From Robiginitomaculum sp. (lineage in GTDB: Bacteria; Pseudomonadota; Alphaproteobacteria; Caulobacterales; Maricaulaceae), in contig JAJFFO010000007.1 of NCBI GenBank assembly GCA_021776615.1, forward strand, positions 1 through 64,000: 64,000 bases of DNA, in the 5' to 3' direction. Below the pieces are notes generated by a model. That model had not been told where the DNA came from and made no database searches. It saw only the letters and a program-made list of their open reading frames with translations. Shown in pieces: positions 1,006-15,085 of this stretch; positions within the stretch are counted from its first letter, which is position 1, and every line of letters starts with the position of its first letter. The position numbers were made by a program, and so were the translations under genes.

Positions 1006-1545
1006 TTATTTGGCTCCAGTATTTAATTTCCGGGATTGAACGTAAGCGTCAAACAGTCTCGCATTATCGGCTTTGCACTGTTTGATTTTTGCTAATATGC
1101 CTTCTGATTGCCTAATGGTTTTTTCGCTATAGGGGCTGAAAAAACCTGTGTTCACAAATCGATATTGCATGAGCTTGGTATCAGGTTCGGTGTTGAATTT
1201 CACAGTCATGGTCGCGGTACAGTTATGATCATTTTCGCATTCTAAGCAGTCCAATTCCCACGTTTCTGGCACCCGTAAGGAGACGGTACCATTATACATT
1301 TTATAGAATTCTGCCGTGAGGGGGCCATCCGTTTGGAAATAATATAAAAGTGTGCCCGCAAAACCTTCTTTTAAATGCTGCCAATCCCTAAACGCACCGA
1401 AAACATTATGTCGCACGTTGAGAAGACGTTCAGCTTTTTCTAAATCATCTGCATTTGTTACAGGTGTCGCCGTTCTGCCAATCTCCTGGTGCTGACAAGA
1501 GGAGATGAGCAAAACTGTCACGACTGTACACTTCACCAGATTCAC
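1006..1545 (-). CDS. Small putative lipoprotein of unknown function
   Basis: I place the start at GTG 1543-1545, because it overlaps the stop of the upstream gene in a GTGA arrangement typical of translational coupling; a longer frame would overlap by about 37 bp and has only a TTG start. From GTG the protein is 179 residues and begins with a short hydrophobic signal ending in LLISSC, a plausible lipobox with Ser-Ser before the Cys. The mature part has paired cysteines (LDCLECENDHNCTA). I recognise no family. It forms a coupled pair with the large exported protein upstream and precedes the DUF4279-like gene. Confidence 0.65.
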   Translation of the reverse strand: MNLVKCTVVTVLLISSCQHQEIGRTATPVTNADDLEKAERLLNVRHNVFGAFRDWQHLKEGFAGTLLYYFQTDGPLTAEFYKMYNGTVSLRVPETWELDCLECENDHNCTATMTVKFNTEPDTKLMQYRFVNTGFFSPYSEKTIRQSEGILAKIKQCKADNARLFDAYVQSRKLNTGAK

Positions 1546-3080
1546 TTTGTGTAAACAAAAATGGTCTTTGGACACCAATCATCGCTCATAACCACGGCAA
1601 ATTCATCGATGGAATTGTAACTGCTGGGTGCCTTATATGTTTTCTTGCCGCTCATGGAATAGTTCAAACCTGTCGGGGTGTTAGATTTACCCATCGTGAT
1701 GACGCTCGAGGAATTACCAATGTGCCGGCCACTTACAACCACTTCAAAGCTGGGATAGCGAACATAGTCTTTCGTGATGTTCACATTTCCGTTGGCGCTT
1801 ATCGTAAATTCTTCGCCGGGTGAGAGCCTTGATGGCGGGCGGTTATATGTAATTTGCGCACCGCCACGCCCTGGCTTGCTCCATGTTATTTTGCCAGGTT
1901 GATGATCGCAGCCTGATATGGCTGTATTTTCTTTTCCCTCTATTTTTGTTTCCGACAATACCCAGGTTGAGCTATTTATCGGGGGGAATTTGTCGGCACT
2001 GCGCACCGGTTCAGGTGGATCATCGTAAACTGGCGGCGGCGGAAAACCTCCGCCGGTCACAGGCGGTATTGGTTTGTCAATCTTGCAAATCGGATCCCGG
2101 TCCATATCCTGGATCGTGTAATATATGTTAGAAAGTCCCGAGGCATTATAGTACCGCTGTTGCAGCCAATTTTGCCAAGTAACCAGTCGAGCGGATTCTT
2201 GTATAACGCGATCATAATTGCAGATTTTACAGTTGGCGATGCCGTCATGGTTCTGATCCGCCGTTTGAAAAAGATGATCACGCGCAATATTCAAGTTGTT
2301 TTCGATTGAACGGCACGTGTTCCAATTACTTCCTGTGCAATCTGTCAGCCCTTGGGATAAATTTCGTGCCGCTGTGAAAGCTCCTCTGGCTTGAGCAATA
2401 CTCCAACGATCACCACTGCCGCATTGCGTATTGGTTCCGGCGCGGCGCGGTGCGGTGGATGATAAAATATCGGAGGCTCCATTGGCGGCATTTCGGCCCA
2501 AACCATCAGCAAAGACGAAATCTCCATCGGTCAAATCGAAAGTTTCAGTTGTTGAAATATCATTGCCCAAGATCTGATCGAAATAAGCGTGCAACGGTGT
2601 GACCGTCGTCACGCCAGATTCGAGGGCCACCTGATGGTCAAGAGCGCCGATCATGGCGTCTTTTCGTATATTGATTGTACTAAACGCTTGGTTCGGATCG
2701 CTGGCAAAGGACGCCAAGGTTGCATCAACACCGTTTTCCAGGCAGCCAAAAAGCTCGAGCTTTGTCGTGTCGCCAATGGCTGCACTATGCAGTCGACCAA
2801 GCGCATGACCATAAAACGCCGCCGCGGCATTTGTCAGATCTGCGAGGTTGAACTGTGGTGAAGGTGGGGCGCCAAATCTGGACGATGGTGTTTCGGATGC
2901 TCGCTTTGCCTTAAGATATGGAATTAGGTATTCGGCCGAGACCATTTTATCAAAAGTTTTCCATGCAGGAGTCCCCAGGATTTCTGTACCCTTACATTCA
3001 GCGGCATGAGCTATTGTTGGTAGGGAAAGAGCTAAACCGATAGCGCATATGATCGTGGTGATTCTGGTCATGACAGACAC
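1542..3080 (-). CDS. Large exported protein with Ca-binding-like loops, unknown family
   Basis: The 512-residue product starts with a clean Sec signal peptide (about 26 residues, cleaved after AHA) and is therefore periplasmic or secreted. The middle holds DQNHDGIANCK, a loop resembling EF-hand or thrombospondin type 3 calcium motifs, and a shorter DMDRDPICK. A proline-rich linker near residues 338-355 separates an alpha-helical N-terminal half from a C-terminal region of beta-strand character. I do not recognise the family. It is the first gene of a coupled pair and has about 100 bp of non-coding DNA before it, enough for a promoter. The end (WCPKTIFVYTK) weakly recalls the end of the exported protein at 9130. 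Confidence 0.7.
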   Translation of the reverse strand: MSVMTRITTIICAIGLALSLPTIAHAAECKGTEILGTPAWKTFDKMVSAEYLIPYLKAKRASETPSSRFGAPPSPQFNLADLTNAAAAFYGHALGRLHSAAIGDTTKLELFGCLENGVDATLASFASDPNQAFSTINIRKDAMIGALDHQVALESGVTTVTPLHAYFDQILGNDISTTETFDLTDGDFVFADGLGRNAANGASDILSSTAPRRAGTNTQCGSGDRWSIAQARGAFTAARNLSQGLTDCTGSNWNTCRSIENNLNIARDHLFQTADQNHDGIANCKICNYDRVIQESARLVTWQNWLQQRYYNASGLSNIYYTIQDMDRDPICKIDKPIPPVTGGGFPPPPVYDDPPEPVRSADKFPPINSSTWVLSETKIEGKENTAISGCDHQPGKITWSKPGRGGAQITYNRPPSRLSPGEEFTISANGNVNITKDYVRYPSFEVVVSGRHIGNSSSVITMGKSNTPTGLNYSMSGKKTYKAPSSYNSIDEFAVVMSDDWCPKTIFVYTK

Positions 3081-3183: not shown

Positions 3184-3672
3184 CTAATTCGCGCATTGGC
3201 GATCTATTTTGACGCAAACATGTTCGTTAAAACCCCAGCGCCGCAACAGATCTTCGCCGCCCCTTAATTGCCTCGAATAGATCATGCCCGACGGACACAC
3301 ATAACATTGGTTTGATGTGCCGGTGACGGGCGCTCTATTGTGGGTGCCCGCTATGCCGGGGCATCGCGCGACGCGATTAACGCCGACATCAAACTCGGTA
3401 CTGGCGGTAACAATCCCCGGTTTGGCAACGGTTTCTGTGACGTAATAAGCACTGCACCGGCACCGCCCTGTGCAACTCTCGACAAATTTATTGGTGGTTT
3501 GCGGCCCAAAGGGACGCAGGGTTCTGGTGGTGTTGGATTGAGCGATTTGTTGCGCTCTGGGCGGCGGGCTTTGTTGGAAATTTGTCGCGTGGTTGTTTGA
3601 GCTGGATAAGATCACCGCCGCTCCAATCCCGACACTCAAAGCGATTAAAAAGATTAGAACAGATTTTATCAT
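3184..3672 (-). CDS. Small Cys-rich exported or membrane-anchored protein
   Basis: The 162-residue protein begins MIKSVLIFLIALSVGIGAA, a hydrophobic segment without an obvious cleavage site, so it may be a signal anchor. A Gln/Pro/Thr-rich spacer follows, then a cysteine-rich domain (CTGRCRC, CPG, CYVCPSG, HVC and a final DRQC). The many paired cysteines suggest disulfides in the periplasm or outside. No family recognised. It stands between other small exported proteins on the same strand. Confidence 0.65.
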   Translation of the reverse strand: MIKSVLIFLIALSVGIGAAVILSSSNNHATNFQQSPPPRAQQIAQSNTTRTLRPFGPQTTNKFVESCTGRCRCSAYYVTETVAKPGIVTASTEFDVGVNRVARCPGIAGTHNRAPVTGTSNQCYVCPSGMIYSRQLRGGEDLLRRWGFNEHVCVKIDRQCAN

Positions 3673-3705: not shown

Positions 3706-3894
3706 CTATTCTTGCAATTTCGTGTTGCAAATTTGGGAGAGCGGGCGACCTTTTAACCGCAATAGAGCGCTTTGTTGGGCACGGTAAAAAGGAAGCGCAT
3801 ACAACTGGCAAACGCCATCATCATGTGCATGTGAAGTTTGCGGATGACAGGCCCCGAATAGCAGCAAAAGACTTAATTTGTGGCCAATATCCAT
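3706..3894 (-). CDS. Possible tiny exported protein (62 aa)
   Basis: This minus-strand frame begins MDIGHKLSLLLLFGACHPQ, which looks like a short secretion signal with a lipobox-like FGAC, and ends shortly before the gene at 3672. It overlaps the last 74 bp of the exported-protein gene read from 4198, which is unusual, and has no clear ribosome site. It may be a real small gene in a locus of small secreted proteins, or a chance frame. Confidence 0.3.
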   Translation of the reverse strand: MDIGHKLSLLLLFGACHPQTSHAHDDGVCQLYALPFYRAQQSALLRLKGRPLSQICNTKLQE

Positions 3895-4198
3895 TACCTC
3901 TGCCGCTTCTATAGCACGCCCAATTTGTTGCCTCTTTTTCAGAAAAGAAGATGAGGGTGCAATTTAGCCCGGCTTTGCTGAAGCCTGGCGGAATAACGAA
4001 GAATGGACCGACGGCACCAACATTTGGACTACAATGAGACCAGCTCTTGGCGGCTTGCGCTGATGCGGGCTGCGAAATGGTCCCGATCATCAATCCCGGA
4101 AGAATTAACGAAAACACCGTAGTGGTACCAACTAGAAACCTGGTTATTCTCGTTCGTGCAATTGCGAATTTATGTTTGGTTTGCGATGGGTTTTTCAT
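3821..4198 (-). CDS. Small exported protein under the shared dyad promoter motif
   Basis: The start is the second of two adjacent ATGs (4196-4198); AGGAG lies 7 nt before it. A longer frame would run into the promoter motif. The 125-residue product has a long n-region and hydrophobic core and a signal cleavage after QPASAQA. The mature part is about 80 residues with four cysteines (HCSP, NCTL, WACY, FTCT), suggesting two disulfides. No family recognised. The dyad motif at 4255-4276 sits 57 bp upstream in the orientation of this gene, as at 7551 and 9052, so it is probably co-regulated with those exported proteins. Confidence 0.7.
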   Translation of the reverse strand: MKNPSQTKHKFAIARTRITRFLVGTTTVFSLILPGLMIGTISQPASAQAAKSWSHCSPNVGAVGPFFVIPPGFSKAGLNCTLIFFSEKEATNWACYRSGRGNGYWPQIKSFAAIRGLSSANFTCT

Positions 4199-4254
4199 CA
4201 TTGATCTCCTGTTCGATTTATATTTGAAATATAAAACCGGCCAGTGATCGGGCC

Positions 4255-4276
4255 TATTAGCATATGTGCGTATATT
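4255..4276 (-). promoter_or_regulatory. Shared dyad promoter/operator motif, copy 1
   Basis: Read on the minus strand the site is ATATACGCAC, AT, ATGCTAATAG preceded by A. It differs at two positions from the copies at 7550 and 9051 over 22 bp. It lies 57 bp before the start at 4198 and points the same way as the gene. The right half contains TAAT-type sequence that could form a -10 element, so it may be a promoter core, an operator of the nearby NarL/LuxR-type regulator, or both. Confidence 0.6.
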
Positions 4277-4313
4277 GAGGGGCGGCACGAAACTGTGACA
4301 GGTCCAATGGCCT

Positions 4314-4335
4314 AAAATACGCGCAATGTCGTATT
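4314..4335 (+). promoter_or_regulatory. Degenerate dyad motif before the hybrid kinase gene
   Basis: The site contains the perfect inverted repeat AAATACG, 8 bp, CGTATTT and matches the 22-bp motif of 7550/9051 at about 14 positions, mainly in the left half (AATACGC, CAA). It lies 33 bp before the kinase start at 4369. It may be a weaker binding site for the same regulator, giving feedback on the kinase gene. Confidence 0.4.
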
Positions 4336-4368
4336 TGCGGCGCAGGCGAGGTCGAGTAAGTTGCCCGC

Positions 4369-6852
4369 ATGTCAAAGTCTATTCCTGAGCGGTTAGCACA
4401 AAAACAAATTCCCCAATTATTGGGTATTGTCATTGCTTTGCCACTTATAATTCTGCTTTTGTGGGGCCAGCCACCGGCCCATGCACAATCGAGCAAGCCG
4501 GCCATCGCCAGCGGGGAATTAGTCCTCCCGGATTGGTCTTTTTTTGATGGACCACCGCTTGAGCTGTCTGGCGATTGGGAGGTGGTATGGGGGCAACTTT
4601 TAGCGCCTGAAGAGTTTGATGGTGCTTATGACGGTGAACACTTCAAGCTTCCGGGGCGTTGGAACAATCAAGATAGGCCCGGCATAAAAAACGCCTATGG
4701 AGTCGCCACTTTTCGCGTACGGCTTAACTTACCGGAATATAATCGTAATGTCGCCTTTAGCTTGATCGCGCCGCATGCCGCCTACCGGGTTTATATTGAC
4801 GGCGTTTTGGTCATTAGCAGCGGCACGGTTTCTCCAACAAAGGAGGGTTTTGAGGCGAATTATGTTTCGCGCACGTTCGCCGGGCAGAGCGGCGCCAGCG
4901 AAATTGTCATGCAGGTTTCTAATTTCGCCCATGCTTATGGCGGGCCGGGCCACCCTTTGACGCTATGGGATGCGCAACGCTTGGAGCGTTTTCTCGACGC
5001 CGTCTCTCTGGCCTACGGGCTGGTATTGGGCATCATGTTCGCCATCGGGCTGTTTCATCTCATTTTTTATCTGGCCGACCGCCGCGATTACGCCAATGGC
5101 CCAATACATTTATGGTTCTCGATTTTATGCTTTATTATTGTGTATCGCGTTCAGGGGGTGATCCCGTTTTTTCACACCTATTTTCCAGATACAAATTATT
5201 GGGAAAACCTGCGCTTCACCTATGCTAGCCTTTATGCCGCACCGGCGGTTTACCTGCTTTTTTTCAGATCAGTTTTCCCGGCTCAGTTTCCCAAAAAGCT
5301 AACGCAAACCATTATCGCCACAAGCGTTATCGGCTTGGTATTCAGCTTAATAGCGACAGAATATTATTACACGCTCACCCGTAATTTCTCGATTCTCCTC
5401 AACGTGGTTGCGATTGTTTACAGCATCATTTTCACGGTGCGCGCCATGGTCGCCCGGCAAGCCGGAGCGTTGGTTATTCTGATTGCCAATTCGATGTTTC
5501 TGCTAACGGCGATCAATGACGCTATAATTTACACTGATCAGGGCAGCGGTTTTGATGCAACGCCTTTCGGAATTTTGGCGCTGGGCCTGGGTTATTCCTA
5601 CGCCCTTCTTTTGCGTTTACAGCACGCTTTCAAAGAAGCGCGAACCACGTCACAAGCATTGGAAACCCTTAACCGCGATCTTGAGAAGCAAGTGCGAGAC
5701 AGAACTTTGGCGTTCAAGTCAGCGGCGGCAAAAGCTGAAAACGCCGCCGAGGAACGCGCTCGCTTCATCGCCGCGGCCAGCCATGATTTACGCCAGCCCT
5801 TGCATGCTTTGGCGATGTTCAATGCCGCCCTTAAATCAAAATTGAAACGAAAACCAGAAAGTGAACTTGTCGAAAAGCAAGAAAATAGCATCGCCAATCT
5901 TAGCGCGCTTTTGCAAGACACGCTGGATACGGCGCGGGCTGAAATTCAACAAAAAACCCCAAATTGGAAGGAGGTTGAGATTGAGGCTGTTTTTTCCAAA
6001 TTGTCAGGTGCTTTTACAATTCAGGCGAACACCCGCAACATCAAACTTTCCTTTGAAGGTAGAGGCGGCACAATTGTTACCGACCCGGCACTGCTCCAGC
6101 GTATATTGGGAAACCTGATTGAAAATGCGCTGAAAGCGGCCAATTCTGCGGTGATTATAGAAGCTCATCATGATTATAATAGTTGGGTTTTTTGTGTGTC
6201 TGATGATGGTGCCGGCATAGCAAACGAGGATGTTGATCGTATTTTCGAATCTTACGTTACCTTGCAAGATACCGTTGCCGGACAGGGCGGCGGTTACGGG
6301 CTGGGCCTGTTTGTCGTCAAAGAGTTTTCTAAACTTCTTGGCGGCCAAATCACCGTCAATTCGCAGTGTGATGAGGGATGTCAGTTCACCTTGAACTTAC
6401 CCGATCAGAACGCCCAATTGAGTGCCGTACCGCAATCGCTCGCATTGCAAAGCGCCGCACCGTCGCTTCAAAGCATAAGCGTGCTGGCCATTGATGATGA
6501 ATTGGACGTTCTGGAGGCCACGGTAGCAATGTTGCGCGAATGGGGCTGCGAAGCCAAATCGGTGAGCAAACCTGAGGATGCCATGGCGGCTCTTGCGTTG
6601 GGGTTTAGGCCTGATGTGATGTTGGTGGATTTTCATCTTCATGACACAGATGGCCTGAAAGTGATTGAAGCGATCAACGCCAAATTGCCCGCGCCTATTC
6701 CGGCCATCATGATTACCGGCGCAACGGAGCCTGAAATATTGAGGAAAATTGAAGCGGCGGGCATTCCGGTGCTGGAAAAACCTATTGCCCCGTGGCGTTT
6801 GGCGCGAATGATAGAAGATACTATTAAACAGACTAAACAAGGCCTGCCTTAA
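4369..6852 (+). CDS. 7TMR-DISM hybrid sensor histidine kinase with receiver domain
   Basis: An 827-residue membrane sensor. Residues 1-40 form a signal peptide (cleaved near AHAQ). Residues about 41-195 form a periplasmic beta-sandwich of the DISM type (GDWEVVWG, LPGRWN). Seven membrane segments follow between about 205 and 400, then a coiled coil. The HisKA site is SHDLRQP with His472. The ATPase has NLIENALKA (N box), DDGAGI and GGYGLGLF (G boxes). A C-terminal receiver has phospho-acceptor Asp754 in MLVDFHL and the conserved Lys in EKPI. It stands beside a NarL/LuxR response regulator (minus strand, 17 bp gap between stops) and among exported-protein genes, so the pair probably forms the local signalling system. 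The ligand is unknown; DISM sensors often bind small carbohydrates or related molecules. Confidence 0.88.
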   Translation: MSKSIPERLAQKQIPQLLGIVIALPLIILLLWGQPPAHAQSSKPAIASGELVLPDWSFFDGPPLELSGDWEVVWGQLLAPEEFDGAYDGEHFKLPGRWNNQDRPGIKNAYGVATFRVRLNLPEYNRNVAFSLIAPHAAYRVYIDGVLVISSGTVSPTKEGFEANYVSRTFAGQSGASEIVMQVSNFAHAYGGPGHPLTLWDAQRLERFLDAVSLAYGLVLGIMFAIGLFHLIFYLADRRDYANGPIHLWFSILCFIIVYRVQGVIPFFHTYFPDTNYWENLRFTYASLYAAPAVYLLFFRSVFPAQFPKKLTQTIIATSVIGLVFSLIATEYYYTLTRNFSILLNVVAIVYSIIFTVRAMVARQAGALVILIANSMFLLTAINDAIIYTDQGSGFDATPFGILALGLGYSYALLLRLQHAFKEARTTSQALETLNRDLEKQVRDRTLAFKSAAAKAENAAEERARFIAAASHDLRQPLHALAMFNAALKSKLKRKPESELVEKQENSIANLSALLQDTLDTARAEIQQKTPNWKEVEIEAVFSKLSGAFTIQANTRNIKLSFEGRGGTIVTDPALLQRILGNLIENALKAANSAVIIEAHHDYNSWVFCVSDDGAGIANEDVDRIFESYVTLQDTVAGQGGGYGLGLFVVKEFSKLLGGQITVNSQCDEGCQFTLNLPDQNAQLSAVPQSLALQSAAPSLQSISVLAIDDELDVLEATVAMLREWGCEAKSVSKPEDAMAALALGFRPDVMLVDFHLHDTDGLKVIEAINAKLPAPIPAIMITGATEPEILRKIEAAGIPVLEKPIAPWRLARMIEDTIKQTKQGLP

Positions 6853-6880
6853 ACGAGACCCATCCTAAACAAGACCCACC

Positions 6881-7507
6881 CTAAACAAGACCGGCCCTAA
6901 TCGCGAAAGATGCCAAAGCCATCGGTGAGCGGATATTCAGTTTACGGTTTATATGTTCGCGGTGTTTACGCACGGTGTGTTCGCTGACGAACAAGGTATC
7001 GGCCACAGTTTTATTACTCCCCCCCTCAACCACCAATTTGACAATTTGCAATTCGCGGTTTGTCAGTGTCTCTCGCAATTGTGCGACTTCTTTCGCATTT
7101 TCTCCCGCGCAGTCCTCTGGCGCTGACAACTTCGTGCCTCGTGCAATGGCGCAAAAGGTTTCTATAAAGTGATCGGCGTCCGCGGTTTTATATAAAAACC
7201 CGTCCGCACCCGCCGCGTAAATATCGGCTGGCGAATGGGTGTCTGTGTCCCCCGTAAGAACGATTATTTTTACCGCGATCTGTCGCTTGCGTATTTGCTG
7301 GAGAACATCCAGACCGGTCCTTCGCGGCAAGCCTATATCCAATAGAGCTAGATCAAAAACCTCACTGGTGAGGCGTTTTAGCGCCTCTTCGCCATTGTCG
7401 ACCTCCACCACTTGCGCGACGCGATCGGCGATAAGCGCGGTCAAACCTTGCCGCACCAGCGCATGATCCTCGGCGATTAATACGCGCGTGTTTTTAAGAT
7501 CAGTCAT
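6881..7507 (-). CDS. NarL/LuxR-family response regulator
   Basis: I take ATG 7505-7507 with AGAGG just before it; a longer frame to 7600 would run through the dyad motif. The 208-residue product has a receiver domain (acidic pocket Glu13-Asp14, phospho-acceptor Asp57 in LLDIGLP, a VLTGD segment and the Lys of YKTAD) and a C-terminal LuxR helix-turn-helix (LTNRELQIVKLVVEG, NKTVADTLFVSEHTVRKH). It is convergent with the hybrid kinase gene and is the natural output partner of that kinase, perhaps by a direct path or via the kinase's receiver. The dyad at 7551-7572 lies 43 bp upstream of its own start, so autoregulation is possible. As a LuxR-type dimer it should bind a dyad of this size. Confidence 0.88.
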   Translation of the reverse strand: MTDLKNTRVLIAEDHALVRQGLTALIADRVAQVVEVDNGEEALKRLTSEVFDLALLDIGLPRRTGLDVLQQIRKRQIAVKIIVLTGDTDTHSPADIYAAGADGFLYKTADADHFIETFCAIARGTKLSAPEDCAGENAKEVAQLRETLTNRELQIVKLVVEGGSNKTVADTLFVSEHTVRKHREHINRKLNIRSPMALASFAIRAGLV

Positions 7508-7550
7508 CTCGCCTCTATATTCCAGCCTGACCACCGTTGCACAAACCGAA

Positions 7551-7572
7551 ATATACGCACAAGTGCTAATAT
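7551..7572 (+). promoter_or_regulatory. Shared dyad promoter/operator motif, copy 2
   Basis: The site is ATATACGCAC, AA, GTGCTAATAT; the two arms are complementary at 8 of 10 positions. It is identical over 22 bp to the copy at 9052-9073. It lies in the divergent region between the response regulator (start 7507) and an exported-protein gene (start 7625, 52 bp downstream) and is oriented like the latter. It may serve both genes. Confidence 0.7.
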
Positions 7573-7624
7573 CGCGCTCAGGTGACGGCAGTATTCTCAC
7601 AACATTACGTTATTTGTAGCCAAA

Positions 7625-8083
7625 ATGGATATTGATATGCCCGGCGGGACTTATTCAAAAACCGTAAGATTAATGGTTTTATCTGCCCTTGGGTGCATGG
7701 TCGTGACGGGTGCAGCTCATGCAAATATGACAGCGCCTGAAAACATGGTGTTTTGCAAAAACCAATACCGCGCCTTCACGCTATACCAGTCTGAAACGCC
7801 GCGATTTTTCCAAAAAGATATTATTTTAAAAGATAGCGGCAAATTTGTTGTCACGGCAACCGCCGCCGGCTTTACCTTTGAGGGCATGTCCTATGAGCGC
7901 GGCAAGGCATGGAATAAGTGGAAGCTGCTGGACAAGGTCTCCGGCGGACAGCGCCAATGGTCGCAAACATGGTGGGTTGGCAAATCCCAAGATCATTCTC
8001 TGGTTCGCCTGCAATTTATCAAAGACAGCAATGACTGCCCAACCTGCACCGTCAAACTCGAAGTGAAGGCATCTCAATGTTAA
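7625..8083 (+). CDS. Small exported protein, unknown family
   Basis: The 152-residue product has a signal peptide (hydrophobic core VLSALGCMVVTGAAHA) cleaved near residue 33; ATG 7637 is an equally possible start. The mature part is rich in aromatic residues (WNKWKLL, WSQTWWVG) with cysteines near both ends (VFCKN, DCPTC, final SQC), consistent with a disulfide-linked beta-rich secreted protein. No family recognised. The next gene overlaps its stop by 7 bp, so the two are co-translated. The dyad motif copy 2 lies about 53 bp upstream. Confidence 0.7.
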   Translation: MDIDMPGGTYSKTVRLMVLSALGCMVVTGAAHANMTAPENMVFCKNQYRAFTLYQSETPRFFQKDIILKDSGKFVVTATAAGFTFEGMSYERGKAWNKWKLLDKVSGGQRQWSQTWWVGKSQDHSLVRLQFIKDSNDCPTCTVKLEVKASQC

Positions 8084-8541
8084 GGCCAATGTTAATTGCC
8101 GGTGCAAGCTTGGTGCTGTTTTCCGCTTTTTTTGCGCAAGCACCGACCGCCAATGCCGAAAAAGCACCGCCGGGCTCATCATGGTATATCCATGATAGCG
8201 ACGGTTGGGCCGGTCCGTGGCAACGGGTTGGGACGGACGGAACACTGTGGGATCGCAATACGGTTTCATTCACTGGCAAATTCGAAAAAAACGGTGAGCA
8301 TTCCCGATCTGCCAATATTGAAATTCATTTTAGCGACGCCGGGGCACTCTTTGCTGTTCGCAAAGACACCGACGCCTCAGGGCAGACCACGATGCGAACG
8401 TGTGTTTATCTTGGCCAAAGCAAACCAGTGCCAAATATGTTAAGTGAGCGTATGGAATATCTGCGTCGTCTTGAAATTAGCGGGGCATTTCTTTGTTCAA
8501 ACATGGACAAAGCGGGCGCCTGGCAGGGCGAAATGAATTGA
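8077..8541 (+). CDS. Small exported protein, unknown family
   Basis: The start overlaps the end of the preceding gene by 7 bp, implying coupled translation. The 154-residue product begins with a signal peptide cleaved after PTANA (residue about 27). The mature part opens with a Trp-rich strand region (SSWYIHDSDGWAGPWQRVGTDG) and carries two cysteines (RTCVYL, FLCSN). I recognise no family. It probably acts in the same envelope compartment as its partner. Confidence 0.68.
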   Translation: MLRPMLIAGASLVLFSAFFAQAPTANAEKAPPGSSWYIHDSDGWAGPWQRVGTDGTLWDRNTVSFTGKFEKNGEHSRSANIEIHFSDAGALFAVRKDTDASGQTTMRTCVYLGQSKPVPNMLSERMEYLRRLEISGAFLCSNMDKAGAWQGEMN

Positions 8542-8566
8542 ACGATAATGGCCGGGTCATAGATTT

Positions 8567-9043
8567 GTGAAAAACACCAACATACAAAACACCATTCAAG
8601 GCATGCTCGATTTTGCGCTGATAGAGAATTGCTTTGAACAAACCATGCTAGCCTATAATGAGCGGCGTTGGGATGATTTGTTGCACCATTTGGCCCCAAA
8701 ACCTCGCTCTGAGGTTTCCAAAGCCCTTAAAGAACACGGCGAGCAATTCATTATCGACACCGGACAAATCCCGCATATCTGGCAATATCAACACGCAATG
8801 CCCGCCGGGAAAAATTTATTTCAAATTTATGCGCTGATGGCCAATTACAATGCCGGTGAGGAATTGAAGACCTATAAATTGGTTTTCGTCCGCGCGCAAA
8901 AAAGGAAAGATGATAATGCAAACACGCCGCAATGGTTGCTCTCCACAGCAGTGGAGGTCAGCGAAGAGGTTTATAATCAGGGCATTTATGCGTGTTTGCA
9001 ATGGGCACCGGGCTACTATTATTACCCCCTAGAAGACGATTGA
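8567..9043 (+). CDS. Hypothetical cytosolic protein
   Basis: A 158-residue protein with no signal peptide, following the exported pair after 25 bp, so likely in the same transcript. The first codon is GTG without a good ribosome site; ATG 8603 is an alternative. The composition is that of a globular alpha/beta protein (ENCFEQTMLAYNERRWDDLLHHL at the N-terminus, a helical stretch). It ends YYYYPLEDD. No family recognised. A cytosolic member among secreted proteins may be an accessory, chaperone or immunity-like partner; that is a guess. Confidence 0.6.
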   Translation: MKNTNIQNTIQGMLDFALIENCFEQTMLAYNERRWDDLLHHLAPKPRSEVSKALKEHGEQFIIDTGQIPHIWQYQHAMPAGKNLFQIYALMANYNAGEELKTYKLVFVRAQKRKDDNANTPQWLLSTAVEVSEEVYNQGIYACLQWAPGYYYYPLEDD

Positions 9044-9051
9044 AATGACCA

Positions 9052-9073
9052 ATATACGCACAAGTGCTAATAT
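9052..9073 (+). promoter_or_regulatory. Shared dyad promoter/operator motif, copy 3
   Basis: ATATACGCAC, AA, GTGCTAATAT, identical to copy 2, followed by GCG as in copy 4. It lies 56 bp before the start of the exported-protein gene at 9130 and points towards it. Two copies 1.5 kb apart without other flanking similarity argue for a conserved regulatory site and against a recent duplication. Confidence 0.7.
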
Positions 9074-9129
9074 GCGTCAGCGCTAACCAACCCTATTTTC
9101 CAATCACAAACATTAGATTGGAGGTAAAA

Positions 9130-9555
9130 ATGAACCCGCTAACGATAACACTAAAAGCTAGTGCGCTATCCATGGTCATTGGCTTAGGACTGGCAACTCT
9201 TACATCAAGCCCGGCACAGGCGCAGGTCGACAGCAGTAAGCATTGGTACACGGTTTTTACCAAAGGTAGTCTGCCGGCCGGGGGCGGTTGTGCCAGTGTC
9301 GACATTAAATATGTGACAGCACCCAATATGCGCGCAAACCAGTTGATGGCACCACCTTATGGATTTACCCGTGTCTTCAAAAACAGCAGCAGCGTGCGCA
9401 CCCGCGCGCGCGGCGGCTGGTGCCCAAAATCAATCAGTGCGGCAACATGTGAAGGCCGCGAAAAATTGCGGGACAAAAACGTGTGGCACAATTGGCTTGC
9501 CCGCCACTCCTGCGCAACGGTGCGGTGGAATAACACGATTTTGTACAGCAAATAA
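9130..9555 (+). CDS. Small exported protein under the shared dyad motif
   Basis: The start is ATG 9130 with GGAGG 6 nt upstream; an in-frame extension to 9064 would enter the dyad motif. The 141-residue product has a textbook signal peptide cleaved near SSPAQAQ. The mature part is basic and holds five cysteines (GGGCASV, GWCPKS, ATCEG, HSCAT). No family recognised. It is transcribed alone, with about 650 bp free of genes behind it. Confidence 0.7.
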   Translation: MNPLTITLKASALSMVIGLGLATLTSSPAQAQVDSSKHWYTVFTKGSLPAGGGCASVDIKYVTAPNMRANQLMAPPYGFTRVFKNSSSVRTRARGGWCPKSISAATCEGREKLRDKNVWHNWLARHSCATVRWNNTILYSK

Positions 9556-10210: not shown

Positions 10211-12028
10211 CTATTCCTTTGGGATCGTTGTGCCGCCAATGATGATTAGATTACCTACGTCCAGCGTCGCTGCGGCAACACCATTGCCACGCATCTCGTT
10301 GATCACGAGATCATCGCGGCCGTCATTGTCCATGTCTGCGGATGTCGCGCTGTACATCAAAGTATCGCCAAGGTCGTTTGGCGATGTTCCACCTTTTGCG
10401 CCGAAAATATCGGTAATACGCAGCGTGGTTGGGCTGGGCTTTAGGCCCTGTTGAAAGTCGACTGTCGCCGGCCAGGTTCCTGCCTGCCCCCAGACGACAT
10501 GCATTATTCCAGCCTCCGTTCGTCCCATCGGATTTGCCGTCGGGGAGCCTATCGCCAAATCGTCGAAACCATCATTGTCGAAATCGCCGTGCGCGGTCGT
10601 GTCGCTGGAGATCGCCCCAGCTTCCGGCCCGAAGAATGTAGTTACTTGTAAATCGTTCGGCACATTGCCCATATCGAAGCTGCGGTTTTTTAGATTCGCA
10701 GCCGAGAAAAACACATGACCAAGGCCGGCATTGGCGCGGGTCAATGGCTGCCCGGTAATATCACCAAAAAACACGTCTGCATCACGGTCACCATTATAGT
10801 CGAGCCCGCCAAGCATTTCTTCACCGAATCGATCATTCGTAAACTGTCCCGCAACTGTACCGCCATCGATTCTCGTCGAGCCCATCGGCAGGGAATCCAT
10901 GGTGAACACAAGCCCCGCAGGCCACGATGCACCGGTCGGAACATTATCGTCCCAAAGGATGAATACGATACCGCCAATATTGCCGCTGCTGCCTTCCGCC
11001 GTACCTGCCGCCGCACCCTCTGCAAGCAAAACGCCGCCGGCGCGATTCAACGAAGCCGACGCCAAAACTTCCGCGCGTAGGTTGCCGTCAAGGTCCGCTA
11101 CGGCGACCGTCGACCCCAAGTGAAAGCGCTCGCTACCCGCTGGCGGCAATATCTTGAATATATGGCCGACCAAAGGAGTCGCGCCGAAATTCGCCATGTC
11201 GACCGTCAGATTCGCGTTGAGGTGAGCGCCGCCGCGGATGACGTAAACAGCGCCGCTATTGGTAGCCCCACCATTGTCCTCCTGGTCCGCGCCGACGGCA
11301 AGATCGTCGATACCATCGCCGGTAACGTCGCCTTCACGCATCCAGAACCCCATTCGATCAAGCGCCGCAGCGCCAACAATCGTAACGACGGTCACGGTCG
11401 CCGGCGGCGTTCGCAGATCCAGCGGCGTGCCGTTGATCGCCATCGTGCGCAACTCAGGGCTGCCAACGACGATCGTCAGCGCGCCTGCACCAATACGGTC
11501 CGGCGCCGAAGCGCGGAAATTCGGACGGCCAATAATCAGATCACCGATACCGTCACCTGTAAGGTCCGCCATCCAGATCTCACCGCCCGTCGCTTCTTGA
11601 ACACCATCGCCAAAAATCGACAGGACTCGGGTGTTGGGAACCGCAAGGTCAATATCCTGAGCAATCAGGCTATCGCCGAAAATCACTTGCACGCTACCGG
11701 CGCGCGTGCGGCCTAATGGCGAGTCAATCATGTTGGCGCGTGCAAAGTCGAGGTGACCGTCGCCGTCGAGATCATGCCCTCCCGCCACCGGCATTCCGAA
11801 ACGCCCGTCGCCAGCCGCACCGCTGCCGGAAGCGCGCAAAAAGCCGGCACCTGTAAGGCCCTGCAAATCCAAATTCTGGTTTGTGGGCGGAGGAGGAGGT
11901 GGAGGTGGAGGTGGTACAGTGGGCGGGGGAGGTGGCGGCGTCGGCGTGTCCGAGTTGCCGCAACCAGCCAACAACATTACGCAAAACAGCGCCAACATGG
12001 CACCAAAAAACTGGGTTTTATTGGGCAT
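10211..12028 (-). CDS. FG-GAP/integrin-alpha repeat lipoprotein
   Basis: A 605-residue protein with a lipoprotein signal (VMLLAGC, Cys near residue 23). Two polyproline runs then form an extended linker at about residues 31-50. The rest is a series of FG-GAP repeats, each with a calcium-binding loop: DLDGDGHLDF, DLTGDGIGDLIIG, DVTGDGIDDLAVG, DLDGN, DYNGDRDADVFFG, DFDNDGFDDLAIG, DMDNDGRDDLVI. Seven such repeats match one beta-propeller like that of integrin alpha chains. It is presumably outer-membrane anchored, with the propeller held away from the surface by the proline rod, and mediates binding; the partner is unknown. Its base composition seems richer in G+C than the exported-protein genes to its left. 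A pair of direct repeats lies just upstream. Confidence 0.88.
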   Translation of the reverse strand: MPNKTQFFGAMLALFCVMLLAGCGNSDTPTPPPPPPTVPPPPPPPPPPTNQNLDLQGLTGAGFLRASGSGAAGDGRFGMPVAGGHDLDGDGHLDFARANMIDSPLGRTRAGSVQVIFGDSLIAQDIDLAVPNTRVLSIFGDGVQEATGGEIWMADLTGDGIGDLIIGRPNFRASAPDRIGAGALTIVVGSPELRTMAINGTPLDLRTPPATVTVVTIVGAAALDRMGFWMREGDVTGDGIDDLAVGADQEDNGGATNSGAVYVIRGGAHLNANLTVDMANFGATPLVGHIFKILPPAGSERFHLGSTVAVADLDGNLRAEVLASASLNRAGGVLLAEGAAAGTAEGSSGNIGGIVFILWDDNVPTGASWPAGLVFTMDSLPMGSTRIDGGTVAGQFTNDRFGEEMLGGLDYNGDRDADVFFGDITGQPLTRANAGLGHVFFSAANLKNRSFDMGNVPNDLQVTTFFGPEAGAISSDTTAHGDFDNDGFDDLAIGSPTANPMGRTEAGIMHVVWGQAGTWPATVDFQQGLKPSPTTLRITDIFGAKGGTSPNDLGDTLMYSATSADMDNDGRDDLVINEMRGNGVAAATLDVGNLIIIGGTTIPKE

Positions 12029-12379: not shown

Positions 12380-15085
12380 GTGTTAAACTACATAACAAAC
12401 AACAAAATTCAGGAAAGGTTAATCCAATTACGCAATCATCCCTATAGCTGGACCTTTGCTCAAAAGGTCGGCGTTGATCTTGGGGATTTCAACTTGCATA
12501 CACATTTTCGAGCTTTGACTTGCTTGATCGCTGTTTTTTGGTTTGCGGGCTGGCCTGCCGCAGGACGAGCACCTGCCAAAAACGAAAATGCGCACCCCAT
12601 AAACAAACCAATACCAGCAAGTGGAATTATCGATCTAACCGCGCATGATTTTTCTGCCGGCACCAAGGTCAAACTCACGGACAATTGGGAATTTTTCTGG
12701 AAAGCGTTTATTTCCCCGGGAAACACCCTCGCAAAGAGCGAAAAAACCGCTTCCCTACCGCACAATTGGGACGGTCAAATTTTTGAAAATGAAAAGAACA
12801 AAGGCACTGGCTTTGCCACCTATCGTTTAACGGTATTGCTTCCTGCCAATGCCCCGCCGCTGGCCTTATCTTCCAGAGGCTTATCCTATGCCAGTCACAT
12901 CTATGCCAATGGCGTACTTATTCAGGCCAAAGGGAAGCCCGGAGCCCAAAGGGCGGATGAAATCCCCCAAAGCTACGGCATGGTTTCCCTCTTGCCCTCG
13001 CCTTCAATTGTCGACAATACATCACTGCCGCTGACAACGAAAAACGCGCCTAATGAAATAGAGCTAATCATTCATCTCTCCAATTATTTTCATGCCAAAG
13101 GCGGCGTCGCCGAACCTTTGGTCATCGGCAATGCCAAGGCCATGATGCTGTTAGACAATCAGAAGAACCTGGCATTGCGCATGATGATCGGCGTCATGCT
13201 GGCGCTTACTCTCTACCATCTGGTTTTATTTGCCGCCCGACCCGCCGAGAGAGTACCGTTGCAGTTCGCCGCCTATATGAGCGCTGTGCTGGTATATATC
13301 GTTGTCAGCAATAATGTCCTTTCCATGATTGGATATGACGTTCCCGCCAGCCTGTTATTGCGACTAGAATACTTTAGCCTGATTATTGGCGCTTACTTTG
13401 TCTTGCAATTCATGTGGGGACTTTACCCGCAATTGCGCCTGCCAAAAATCAACATGGTATTTTCCGTCTATGTCGCGGTGTTCAGTTGCATCGCCCTGTT
13501 ATTTCCAGCACGGCTTTACACCTTGCTTTTACCGCTTTTCCAATTGGGCGTTTTAACTGCCGTTACCATCGCATTGGCAATTGTCCTGACCGCGATAAAA
13601 GAAAAGTTGCCCCACGCAAGGGTGCTATTGCTCGCTTGCTTGGGCATATTAATCGGCACGGTTTATGGCGTTTTAACCCATAAAGCGGGCGGCAGCGGCC
13701 CCGACAACGCTATCTATCTTTCCGTATGCTTTTTTATTCTCACCCAAGCAGTTGTTATCGGCCGTCAGGCGGCATTGGCAACAGAAACCTTAGAGAAATT
13801 GCGGGAAAAGTTGCAAAATACCAATTTCCAATTGGAAACACGGGTCGCCGAACGCACTAAAGAACTGCAGGCCTCGGTAAAAAAGGCCAATACGGCTAAT
13901 CAGGCCAAAACCGATTTTCTATCGATGATGAGCCATGAATTACGCACGCCCATGAATGCCGTGCTTGGCTCCGCGCAATCCTTAAAACATCAAGCCCTGC
14001 CCCAAGCTGCCAGCGACCTCGTCAACACTTTGAGCGATGCAGGGGAAATATTAATGACCTTGCTTAACGACATTCTCGACCTCGCCAAAATTGAAGCCGG
14101 GAAATTGGAAATTGAGGAAAGTGACGTTGATTTGCGCGAACTTTTGGGTGGTGTAGAGCGGATGTATCGCCCGCAAATTGATGATAAGGGCCTGTCATTT
14201 TCCTTAAACATTGAAGACGATGTTCCGCAATTGGTTCGTGGCGACACGACCCGGATTCGGCAAATTATTTTCAATCTGGTTTCAAACGCTGTCAAATTTA
14301 CCACCGAAGGCAGCGTATCCATTCAAACCAAGGCATTGACAACTAATGCCAACCGCATTGCTTTGTGCATTACCGTTTCTGACACCGGCATTGGCATTGA
14401 CAAAAAAGCCAGAAAAAAACTGTTTAAACAATTTGAACAGGCGGAGAAGAGCACCTCCCGCCGCTTTGGTGGCACCGGGTTAGGCTTGGCAATATCCAAA
14501 GAATTGGCCGCATTAATGGGCGGCGATTTGACCCTCGACCCCAAAACAGGAGTCGGATCCTCATTTACGCTGCACCTTGATGTTGAAATCGCGGCGCAAA
14601 AGACAGCCGCGCCAAAGTCCAACAAACCAGCCGCCGAGACAAAGAGTATGCGGCGCAATTTGAGAATTCTTGCTGCCGAAGATAATATGATGAACCGGCA
14701 AGTGCTGACCGCGTTTTTGGCGAGCTTTAAACAAACAACCGAGTATGCAGACAATGGACAACAAGCGCTGGATATGTTGGCATGCAAGGCCTTTGATCTG
14801 GTTCTTATGGATATCCAGATGCCGATTATGGATGGTGTCAGCGCTGTCAAAGCCCTGCGCGCCGACAAAAACGGGCTCAATACCAATGTCCCGGTGGTCG
14901 CCATGACCGCCAATACCATGTCGGGCGATCGCGAGCGTTATCTTGATGCCGGCATGGATGGTTTTGTCCCTAAGCCAATGGATATTCGTGTGCTCTACAC
15001 CGAGATGGTACGTGCCACAGAAAAGAAAAGAACGCGGGCATTTGCCGCCAAACTCAAAAAGCCGCGCGCCAAGAGGCGGGCATAG
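12380..15085 (+). CDS. Second 7TMR-DISM hybrid sensor histidine kinase with receiver
   Basis: A 901-residue sensor starting at GTG. A hydrophobic segment near residues 45-60 acts as signal or anchor. A periplasmic DISM beta-sandwich (DNWEFFWKAF, LPHNWDGQ) spans about 75-250, and seven membrane segments span about 265-465. A coiled coil leads into HisKA with His519 in SHELRTP, an ATPase with NLVSNAVKF, SDTGIGI and FGGTGLGLAIS, and a receiver with Asp811 in LMDIQMP. The receiver is followed by the conserved Thr/Ala region (AMTANT) and Lys in PKPMD. The architecture parallels the kinase at 4369, but the kinase cores differ (this one is of the BarA/RcsC-like class). No phosphotransfer protein or response regulator lies next to it. 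The basic tail (KKPRAKRRA) is unusual. Confidence 0.88.
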   Translation: MLNYITNNKIQERLIQLRNHPYSWTFAQKVGVDLGDFNLHTHFRALTCLIAVFWFAGWPAAGRAPAKNENAHPINKPIPASGIIDLTAHDFSAGTKVKLTDNWEFFWKAFISPGNTLAKSEKTASLPHNWDGQIFENEKNKGTGFATYRLTVLLPANAPPLALSSRGLSYASHIYANGVLIQAKGKPGAQRADEIPQSYGMVSLLPSPSIVDNTSLPLTTKNAPNEIELIIHLSNYFHAKGGVAEPLVIGNAKAMMLLDNQKNLALRMMIGVMLALTLYHLVLFAARPAERVPLQFAAYMSAVLVYIVVSNNVLSMIGYDVPASLLLRLEYFSLIIGAYFVLQFMWGLYPQLRLPKINMVFSVYVAVFSCIALLFPARLYTLLLPLFQLGVLTAVTIALAIVLTAIKEKLPHARVLLLACLGILIGTVYGVLTHKAGGSGPDNAIYLSVCFFILTQAVVIGRQAALATETLEKLREKLQNTNFQLETRVAERTKELQASVKKANTANQAKTDFLSMMSHELRTPMNAVLGSAQSLKHQALPQAASDLVNTLSDAGEILMTLLNDILDLAKIEAGKLEIEESDVDLRELLGGVERMYRPQIDDKGLSFSLNIEDDVPQLVRGDTTRIRQIIFNLVSNAVKFTTEGSVSIQTKALTTNANRIALCITVSDTGIGIDKKARKKLFKQFEQAEKSTSRRFGGTGLGLAISKELAALMGGDLTLDPKTGVGSSFTLHLDVEIAAQKTAAPKSNKPAAETKSMRRNLRILAAEDNMMNRQVLTAFLASFKQTTEYADNGQQALDMLACKAFDLVLMDIQMPIMDGVSAVKALRADKNGLNTNVPVVAMTANTMSGDRERYLDAGMDGFVPKPMDIRVLYTEMVRATEKKRTRAFAAKLKKPRAKRRA

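Follow-up and report, generated by a model that had tools for sequence, protein, structure and literature searches.

The 64,000-nucleotide stretch of Robiginitomaculum sp. DNA analysed here (contig JAJFFO010000007.1, positions 1 to 64,000; the window) contains, at 4369-7507, a gene for a hybrid histidine kinase (4369-6852, plus strand) that lies tail to tail with a gene for a LuxR/NarL-type response regulator (RR; 6881-7507, minus strand), as well as flanking genes for exported proteins and copies of a dyad sequence that the RR is predicted to bind. The kinase consists of an N-terminal outer beta domain followed by 7TMR-DISM, HisKA, HATPase and receiver domains, with a match to PF07695 (7TMR-DISM) at 2.1e-14 and 54.4 bits versus a cut-off of 29. 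The RR combines a receiver (PF00072, 5e-25) with a GerE domain (PF00196, 9.5e-17), both above cut-offs, and its sequence matches in the PDB include VraR and NarL; D57, T85 and K107 are invariant in an alignment of nine RR sequences, and we take D57 to be the phospho-acceptor Asp and T85 and K107 to be the Thr/Lys switch residues.

Dyad copies in the window

A 22-mer, ATATACGCACAAGTGCTAATAT, is present in identical form at 7551-7572 (18-bp core 7553-7570), between the RR gene and the exported-protein gene that starts at 7625, and at 9052-9073 (core 9054-9071), ahead of the exported-protein gene that starts at 9130; both copies are on the plus strand. A third copy, on the minus strand at 4254-4275 (core 4256-4273), lies ahead of the exported-protein gene that starts at 4198 and also 95 bp ahead of the kinase start. 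The first-pass annotation of this stretch had described the same three copies, and the identity of the first two stands; the third, however, had been placed at 4255-4276 with two mismatches to the 22-mer, whereas three are counted here. When both strands of the 64 kb were searched for the 22-mer with up to three mismatches, these were the only matches, versus a mean of 0 and a largest count of 0 in 100 dinucleotide shuffles. The distances from the 22-mer to the start codons were measured as 52 (7625), 56 (9130) and 55 bases (4198; 52 if translation starts at the ATG at 4201), in agreement with the 52-57 bp reported initially, and the RR start (7507) was likewise found, as reported, 43 bases from the 7551 copy.

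A weaker palindrome, ATACGCGCAATGTCGTAT, is found on the plus strand at 4317-4334, 34 bp ahead of the kinase start, and deviates from the symmetric core at three positions; ATACG-N8-CGTAT occurs nowhere else in the window, and was present in 1 of 100 shuffles. A symmetrised matrix trained on 20 sites, all from other genomes, gave the three main sites as its top matches in the window (30.4, 30.3 and 29.2 bits), followed by 4317-4334 at 14.1 bits, as compared to 9.5 bits for the next match and 11.8 bits for the best match in eight random 64-kb sequences. This palindrome, which had been proposed as a weaker copy at 4314-4335 and is better written as 4317-4334, is probably, but not certainly, a fourth site of the same dyad.

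The core can be written ATACGCA-N4-TGC(TAAT or GTAT), i.e., in an asymmetric and a symmetric form. Identity of two copies over 22 bp and regular spacing to three start codons could also be expected of a repeat element, an alternative-sigma promoter or an RNA hairpin; however, the sites resemble one another only in the 14 arm positions and a few bases next to them and vary in the 4-bp centre and the outer flanks, symmetric copies are present at divergent promoters, and the sites are located 31-125 bp from likely starts. We consider this explanation highly improbable.

Co-occurrence of the site with the response regulator

In the window's own genome (2.16 Mb in 25 contigs), no other copy of the 22-mer was found at up to three mismatches, and a search for the 18-bp core yielded one additional match, with one mismatch, on contig 14. 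Exact cores of either form are expected about 0.02 times in 2.16 Mb at the base composition of the window. Among 18 genomes of the genus (the window's own included), the RR was found in six and not in 12, eight of which are given as 91-99% complete. These 18 genomes contain 17 exact cores, all in the six RR-positive genomes (6/6) and none in the RR-negative genomes (0/12); the Fisher exact probability for this co-occurrence is 5.4e-5 if the genomes are treated as independent and kinship is ignored. Ten of the cores end in TAAT (three each in G000 and G010, two each in G011 and G003) and seven end in GTAT (two each in G005, G007 and G010, one in G011). By location, the kinase-regulator locus accounts for nine, other parts of that contig for two (G005 and G007), and other contigs for six. 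Although 88% of the sequence is coding by a mechanical gene call, 14/17 are intergenic; the other three overlap, respectively, an extended regulator start, an extended downstream start plus a single base of a stop codon upstream, and a 75-aa open reading frame (ORF) in a divergent intergenic region.

The 18-bp core was a more informative search pattern than the 22-mer, for which 99 genomes gave five matches at up to three mismatches outside the window's own genome, in four genomes (two in G010 and one each in G003, G035 and G004). Both G010 matches and the G003 match are regulon sites; the G035 match is located in a repetitive, coding-looking stretch. In the genus set, 12 cores with one mismatch were found (nine of the TAAT form and three of the GTAT form); as a control, the pattern read backwards matched, at up to one mismatch, three places for the TAAT form and two for the GTAT form, with each palindromic place counted once. 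Ten of the 12 one-mismatch matches (all but those of G008 and G009) were judged in context, and two fit the regulon, namely a site on G016 contig 75 and the second site of G011 contig 71; the remaining eight, including the one on contig 14 of the window's own genome, did not.

A search for the RR in the 99 genomes (own included) at E<=1e-20 gave matches in 14, i.e., the window's own genome, five other genomes of the genus (52-68% identity) and eight of other genera (28-34%). A search of a named collection gave 18 loci, eight of which are close relatives at 50-68% identity; these comprise five Robiginitomaculum records (the same data as the five genus genomes) and three contigs from bins outside the genus (Sphingomonadaceae, Arenicella and another gammaproteobacterium), for which binning errors are possible. 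The palindrome ATACGCA-N4-TGCGTAT or a variant of it adjoins the RR or the kinase gene in all eight, with zero or one deviation on the three outside-genus contigs; in seven of the eight it lies between the regulator and the divergent side, and the gammaproteobacterial contig (L030) carries exact copies ahead of the kinase gene and ahead of a gene for an exported lipoprotein-like protein, which in turn is followed by the regulator gene. Eight of the nine regulators have the same recognition-helix stretch, SEHTVRKHREHIN, although they are otherwise 50-68% identical to the window RR; the ninth (L029) agrees at 12 positions, with one residue undetermined. More distant kinase-RR pairs from another family of the class (G290 and G382; L081 7048 and L082 8300) carry STHTIRKHREN in this stretch. 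Beyond these, a model of the RR matched at E<=1e-40 in 2/384 other genomes of the class and in 1/397 other genomes of the phylum (3/385 and 2/398 with the window's own genome counted), both sampled sets in which four to eight candidates were scored per genome; the phylum match (G493) differs in its helix, and the 17 kb searched there contained no site at up to two mismatches. No tblastn match to the RR at 1e-30 was found among 72,556 plasmid records.

One genome without a detected RR at E<=1e-20, G016, nonetheless has a one-mismatch site ahead of a family A homologue (see below), which might indicate that a different, unlinked regulator binds the dyad, with the neighbouring RR as a bystander. 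This explanation appears improbable, as exact sites follow the RR across the genus genomes and as the palindrome adjoins the RR or the kinase gene even on the contigs binned outside the genus. On G016 contig 75 (L075 3014-4537), the family A homologue and its site adjoin only a 215-aa piece of a kinase; this locus appears to be a decayed or incompletely assembled copy.

Exported-protein genes behind the sites

Downstream of the first dyad copy, the plus strand encodes a family C exported protein (7625-8083; the start may be at 7637), a family D exported protein (8077-8541) and a family E protein without a recognised export signal (8567-9043; the start may be at 8603), while the second copy is followed by the gene for a family A exported protein (9130-9555). 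On the minus strand, the third copy is followed by genes for an exported protein (3821-4198), a family H exported protein (3184-3672), a family F exported protein (1542-3071), a probably exported family I protein (1006-1578) and, as the last gene of this run, a DUF4279 protein (556-996), which orientation and spacing suggest to be in the operon of this run. Export was called with a simple script and inspection of N-termini, and the exported proteins around the kinase-RR pair had no family match in Pfam or NCBIfam.

Pairwise comparisons showed that homologues of families A, D, E and F are located directly behind sites in other genomes, whereas those of C, H and I occur there as second genes. 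Specifically, family A homologues immediately follow sites that are exact in G010 and have one mismatch in G016, the family D homologue immediately follows a G010 contig 1 site, family E homologues are at or near sites in G010, G011 and G016, and family F homologues follow sites in G010 and G011 and, as second gene, in G003; as second genes, family C homologues occur behind the site in L023-L026, the family H homologue behind the one-mismatch G016 site, and the family I homologue behind a G011 site. No link to sites in other genomes was found by this comparison for the DUF4279 protein or the protein encoded at 3821-4198, for which no homologue was found near sites elsewhere. As homologues of these genes stand at sites in other genomes, it is the site, rather than gene order, that is common to them.

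Six of the exact sites are unlinked to the kinase-RR locus. On G010 contig 1, one site (12.7 kb) precedes the family D homologue and another (273.7 kb) precedes the gene for a 379-aa exported protein without a Pfam match, a look-alike of which (by eye) in G011 has a sub-threshold NlpC/P60 match. In G003, an unlinked site is found ahead of the gene for a small family B exported protein, with family F behind it. Finally, a family F gene, encoding an exported protein, and a divergent gene for a small Sel1/TPR-like protein (whose Sel1 match falls just short of the cut-off) are separated by two exact sites in G010 and by one exact and one one-mismatch site in G011; the Sel1/TPR-like gene is followed by a gene for a VWA-domain protein, two genes that by eye form an ABC-transporter-like pair, and a gene for a protein with an FGE-sulfatase domain. 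The double operator between the family F gene and this conserved run was observed at L071 5500-13800 and L074 1200-9400, and the run is possibly a second arm of the regulon.

Together, the restriction of exact cores to genomes with the RR, their unlinked recurrence ahead of homologous genes, and the conserved recognition helix support the proposal, already made in the first-pass annotation, that one kinase-regulator pair may control a set of secreted proteins.

As to what these proteins do, the family C protein is predicted to form a beta sandwich (pLDDT 79), and all of the best 50 matches of a fold search had a query-normalised TM below 0.5 and represented diverse beta proteins; since these matches are weak and diverse, no function was read from the fold. 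Membership of nine window genes in a defence system was considered and rejected, the single match being marginal (E 0.0054, for 3184-3672). Elsewhere in the window, 10211-12028 (minus strand) encodes an exported protein that has FG-GAP repeats and in which the signal sequence is followed by a proline-rich stretch, and positions 1-520, at the end of the minus-strand gene run, read like a broken insertion-sequence transposase region. Transposase-like ORFs (by eye) also adjoin the second operator copies in G005 and G007 (L076 4208-4804 and L077 288-905) and might spread the operator.

Promoter geometry and proposed mode of action

Predicted -10-like hexamers are present downstream of all three main sites, namely TATTCT at 7592-7597 (plus strand, 21 bp after the 18-bp core of the first copy), TATTTT at 9094-9099 (plus strand, 22 bp after the core of the second) and TATATT at 4228-4233 (minus strand, 22 bp after the core of the third). 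Across sites oriented toward the exported or target gene (23 rows, left from 26 after removal of three near-identical ones of G005 and G007), TATAAT was matched best, on average, 22 bases after the core (3.13/6), a value reached in 0/5000 shuffles; the 11 asymmetric sites (3.45; 0/5000) and the other 12 rows (2.83; 29/5000) both selected this same offset. The eight sequences oriented toward the RR gene gave no peak at this offset (mean 1.62/6), and class II autoregulation of the RR gene is thus not claimed. The suggestion in the first-pass annotation that the motif could instead be a special promoter is partly retained, in that the fixed distance to a -10-like hexamer has become part of the reading proposed below.

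If the hexamer is the -10 element, the site is predicted to be centred near -43.5, comparable to the positions from which NarL and CrbR activate. A class II activator site has its centre near -41.5 to -44.5, overlapping or abutting the -35 region; for the dyad, the value near -43.5 is a prediction from the -10-like spacing. All ten exact asymmetric sites have the variant arm TGCTAAT on the side facing the exported or target gene (for one, in G011 at 22.5 kb, this is a family E gene). This asymmetry may reflect tuning of the half that abuts the -35 region or may set direction at divergent promoters.

The arm asymmetry also bears on whether the RR, once bound, represses the exported-protein genes until a signal is received. 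TGCTAAT bears some likeness to an extended -10 element, and transcription would be blocked if a dimer covered a -10 element; by contrast, the seven exact symmetric sites carry TGCGTAT, a poor -10, and in both types of site a recurrent -10-like hexamer lies 22 bp further downstream, which would put the dyad where NarL and CrbR activate. Repression therefore seems unlikely, albeit a more serious contender than the explanations considered above.

From these directly observed features (i.e., the sites and their placement, the co-occurrence with the RR, the conservation of the recognition helix and the way the -10 spacing recurs), we consider it likely that the dyad is a class II-type operator through which the 7TMR hybrid kinase and the RR activate dispersed exported-protein genes. 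Binding, phosphotransfer, activation rather than repression, the extents of the operons and the signal are what we infer. The kinase encoded at 4369 would sense an external ligand and phosphorylate the RR. An RR dimer would then bind to the dyad, which is centred near -43.5 and lies immediately ahead of a weak -35 region by this prediction, and recruit RNA polymerase to the exported-protein genes; in the window, the targets would be the run 7625-9043, the gene at 9130 and, on the minus strand, the run that starts at 4198. Feedback may be provided by the weaker site upstream of the kinase and by the site adjoining the RR gene.

In addition to the G016 site, a number of observations weigh against this reading. 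Cores with one mismatch are not tied to the RR, with five in the six RR-positive and seven in the 12 RR-negative genomes, approximately as expected by chance. The sites of L026 and L028 deviate by one base, and the copies upstream of the kinase, while without deviation in L023 (asymmetric form), deviate by one base in L026, two in L025 and three in the window; the most distant pairs, G290 and G382, have only a one- or two-mismatch site, between the kinase and regulator genes. In the spacing test, two sites were entered in both directions, many rows are related, and the -10 matches average only 3.1/6; as the spacing in the window was noticed by eye before testing, the 12-row result, which is without window sites, is the cleaner one. 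Finally, as the window's own genome is 70.7% complete, its site count is a lower bound.

Comparison with known systems

The closest parallels in geometry are the NarX/NarL and CrbS/R systems. According to a study on Escherichia coli NarL (PMC7419079), 7-2-7 sites occur in the ogt and yeaR promoters, and activation is possible from one site at -44.5 or immediately ahead of the -35 element. The system described here shares with NarX/NarL a LuxR/NarL-type RR and inverted 7-base arms around 2 bp (TACGCAC-AA-GTGCTAA in the window), and the seven exact symmetric sites show the 7-2-7 arrangement as TACGCAN-NN-NTGCGTA. The NarL arm consensus is TACYYMT, from which the window arm TACGCAC departs at positions 4 and 7; the likeness is thus one of geometry only, and the dyad is not a NarL site. 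It further differs from NarX/NarL in its arm (TACGCAN), its hybrid 7TMR kinase and its exported-protein targets. For CrbS/R (MxtR/ErdR), a report on the Pseudomonas ACTU motif (PMC5715377) describes an imperfect inverted repeat at -52 to -36 that is required for activation, and states that the motif was not found in enterobacteria, which lack CrbS/R. Both systems pair a hybrid kinase and a LuxR-family RR with an inverted-repeat site; however, CrbS has an SLC5 symporter and STAC, whereas the window kinase has 7TMR-DISM (no SLC5 symporter or STAC Pfam family was found in it at E<=1), the targets differ, and the two are likened by geometry rather than by motif letters.

The best NCBIfam match of the kinase part is NF041832 (NahK/ErcS; 239.2 bits, residues 457-816), which is below the cut-off of 400 bits, and the window kinase differs from this type in having a 7TMR-DISM region ahead of the kinase part. 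With 7TMR-DISM receptors it shares the PF07695 region and an outer beta domain. The predicted structure of the first 215 residues is of modest confidence (pLDDT 69.6) and best resembles the N-terminal part of beta-glucuronidases; most of the 50 PDB matches listed are beta-glucuronidases or beta-galactosidases, although the best match is weak (E 1.7e-5, TM 0.42). These matches suggest a sugar-binding-like outer domain. At 12380-15085, 5.5 kb from the first, the window encodes another hybrid kinase, whose domains are again 7TMR-DISM, HisKA, HATPase and receiver and whose outer domain is similar by eye.

A literature search by title and start of abstract, with most subscription papers outside its coverage, found no description of this kinase-RR pair, of the site, or of an exported-protein regulon for a 7TMR-DISM pair, which is weak evidence of novelty. 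A related kind of system is described in PMC9100948. The sequence comparisons provide good support for a dedicated two-component operator whose geometry is ordinary for NarL-type regulators; the mechanism is known by class, and what would be new is the regulon with its cargo and signal.

Implications

The results provide a specific regulator, a likely DNA site and a list of targets for a lineage without such a regulon in the literature searched, and join in one programme several exported-protein families that have no match in Pfam or NCBIfam. The site can serve as a sequence tag for finding further members, and a 7TMR kinase with a glycosidase-like outer domain points to a testable class of signals. 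More speculatively, the kinase, regulator and operator may form a portable, rare unit with a sugar-sensor-like receptor, in which the operator is kept while its cargo, small exported proteins of no known family, is rearranged from one species to the next and passed between bacterial classes, so as to serve a single surface programme (e.g., life on algal or other glycan-coated surfaces).

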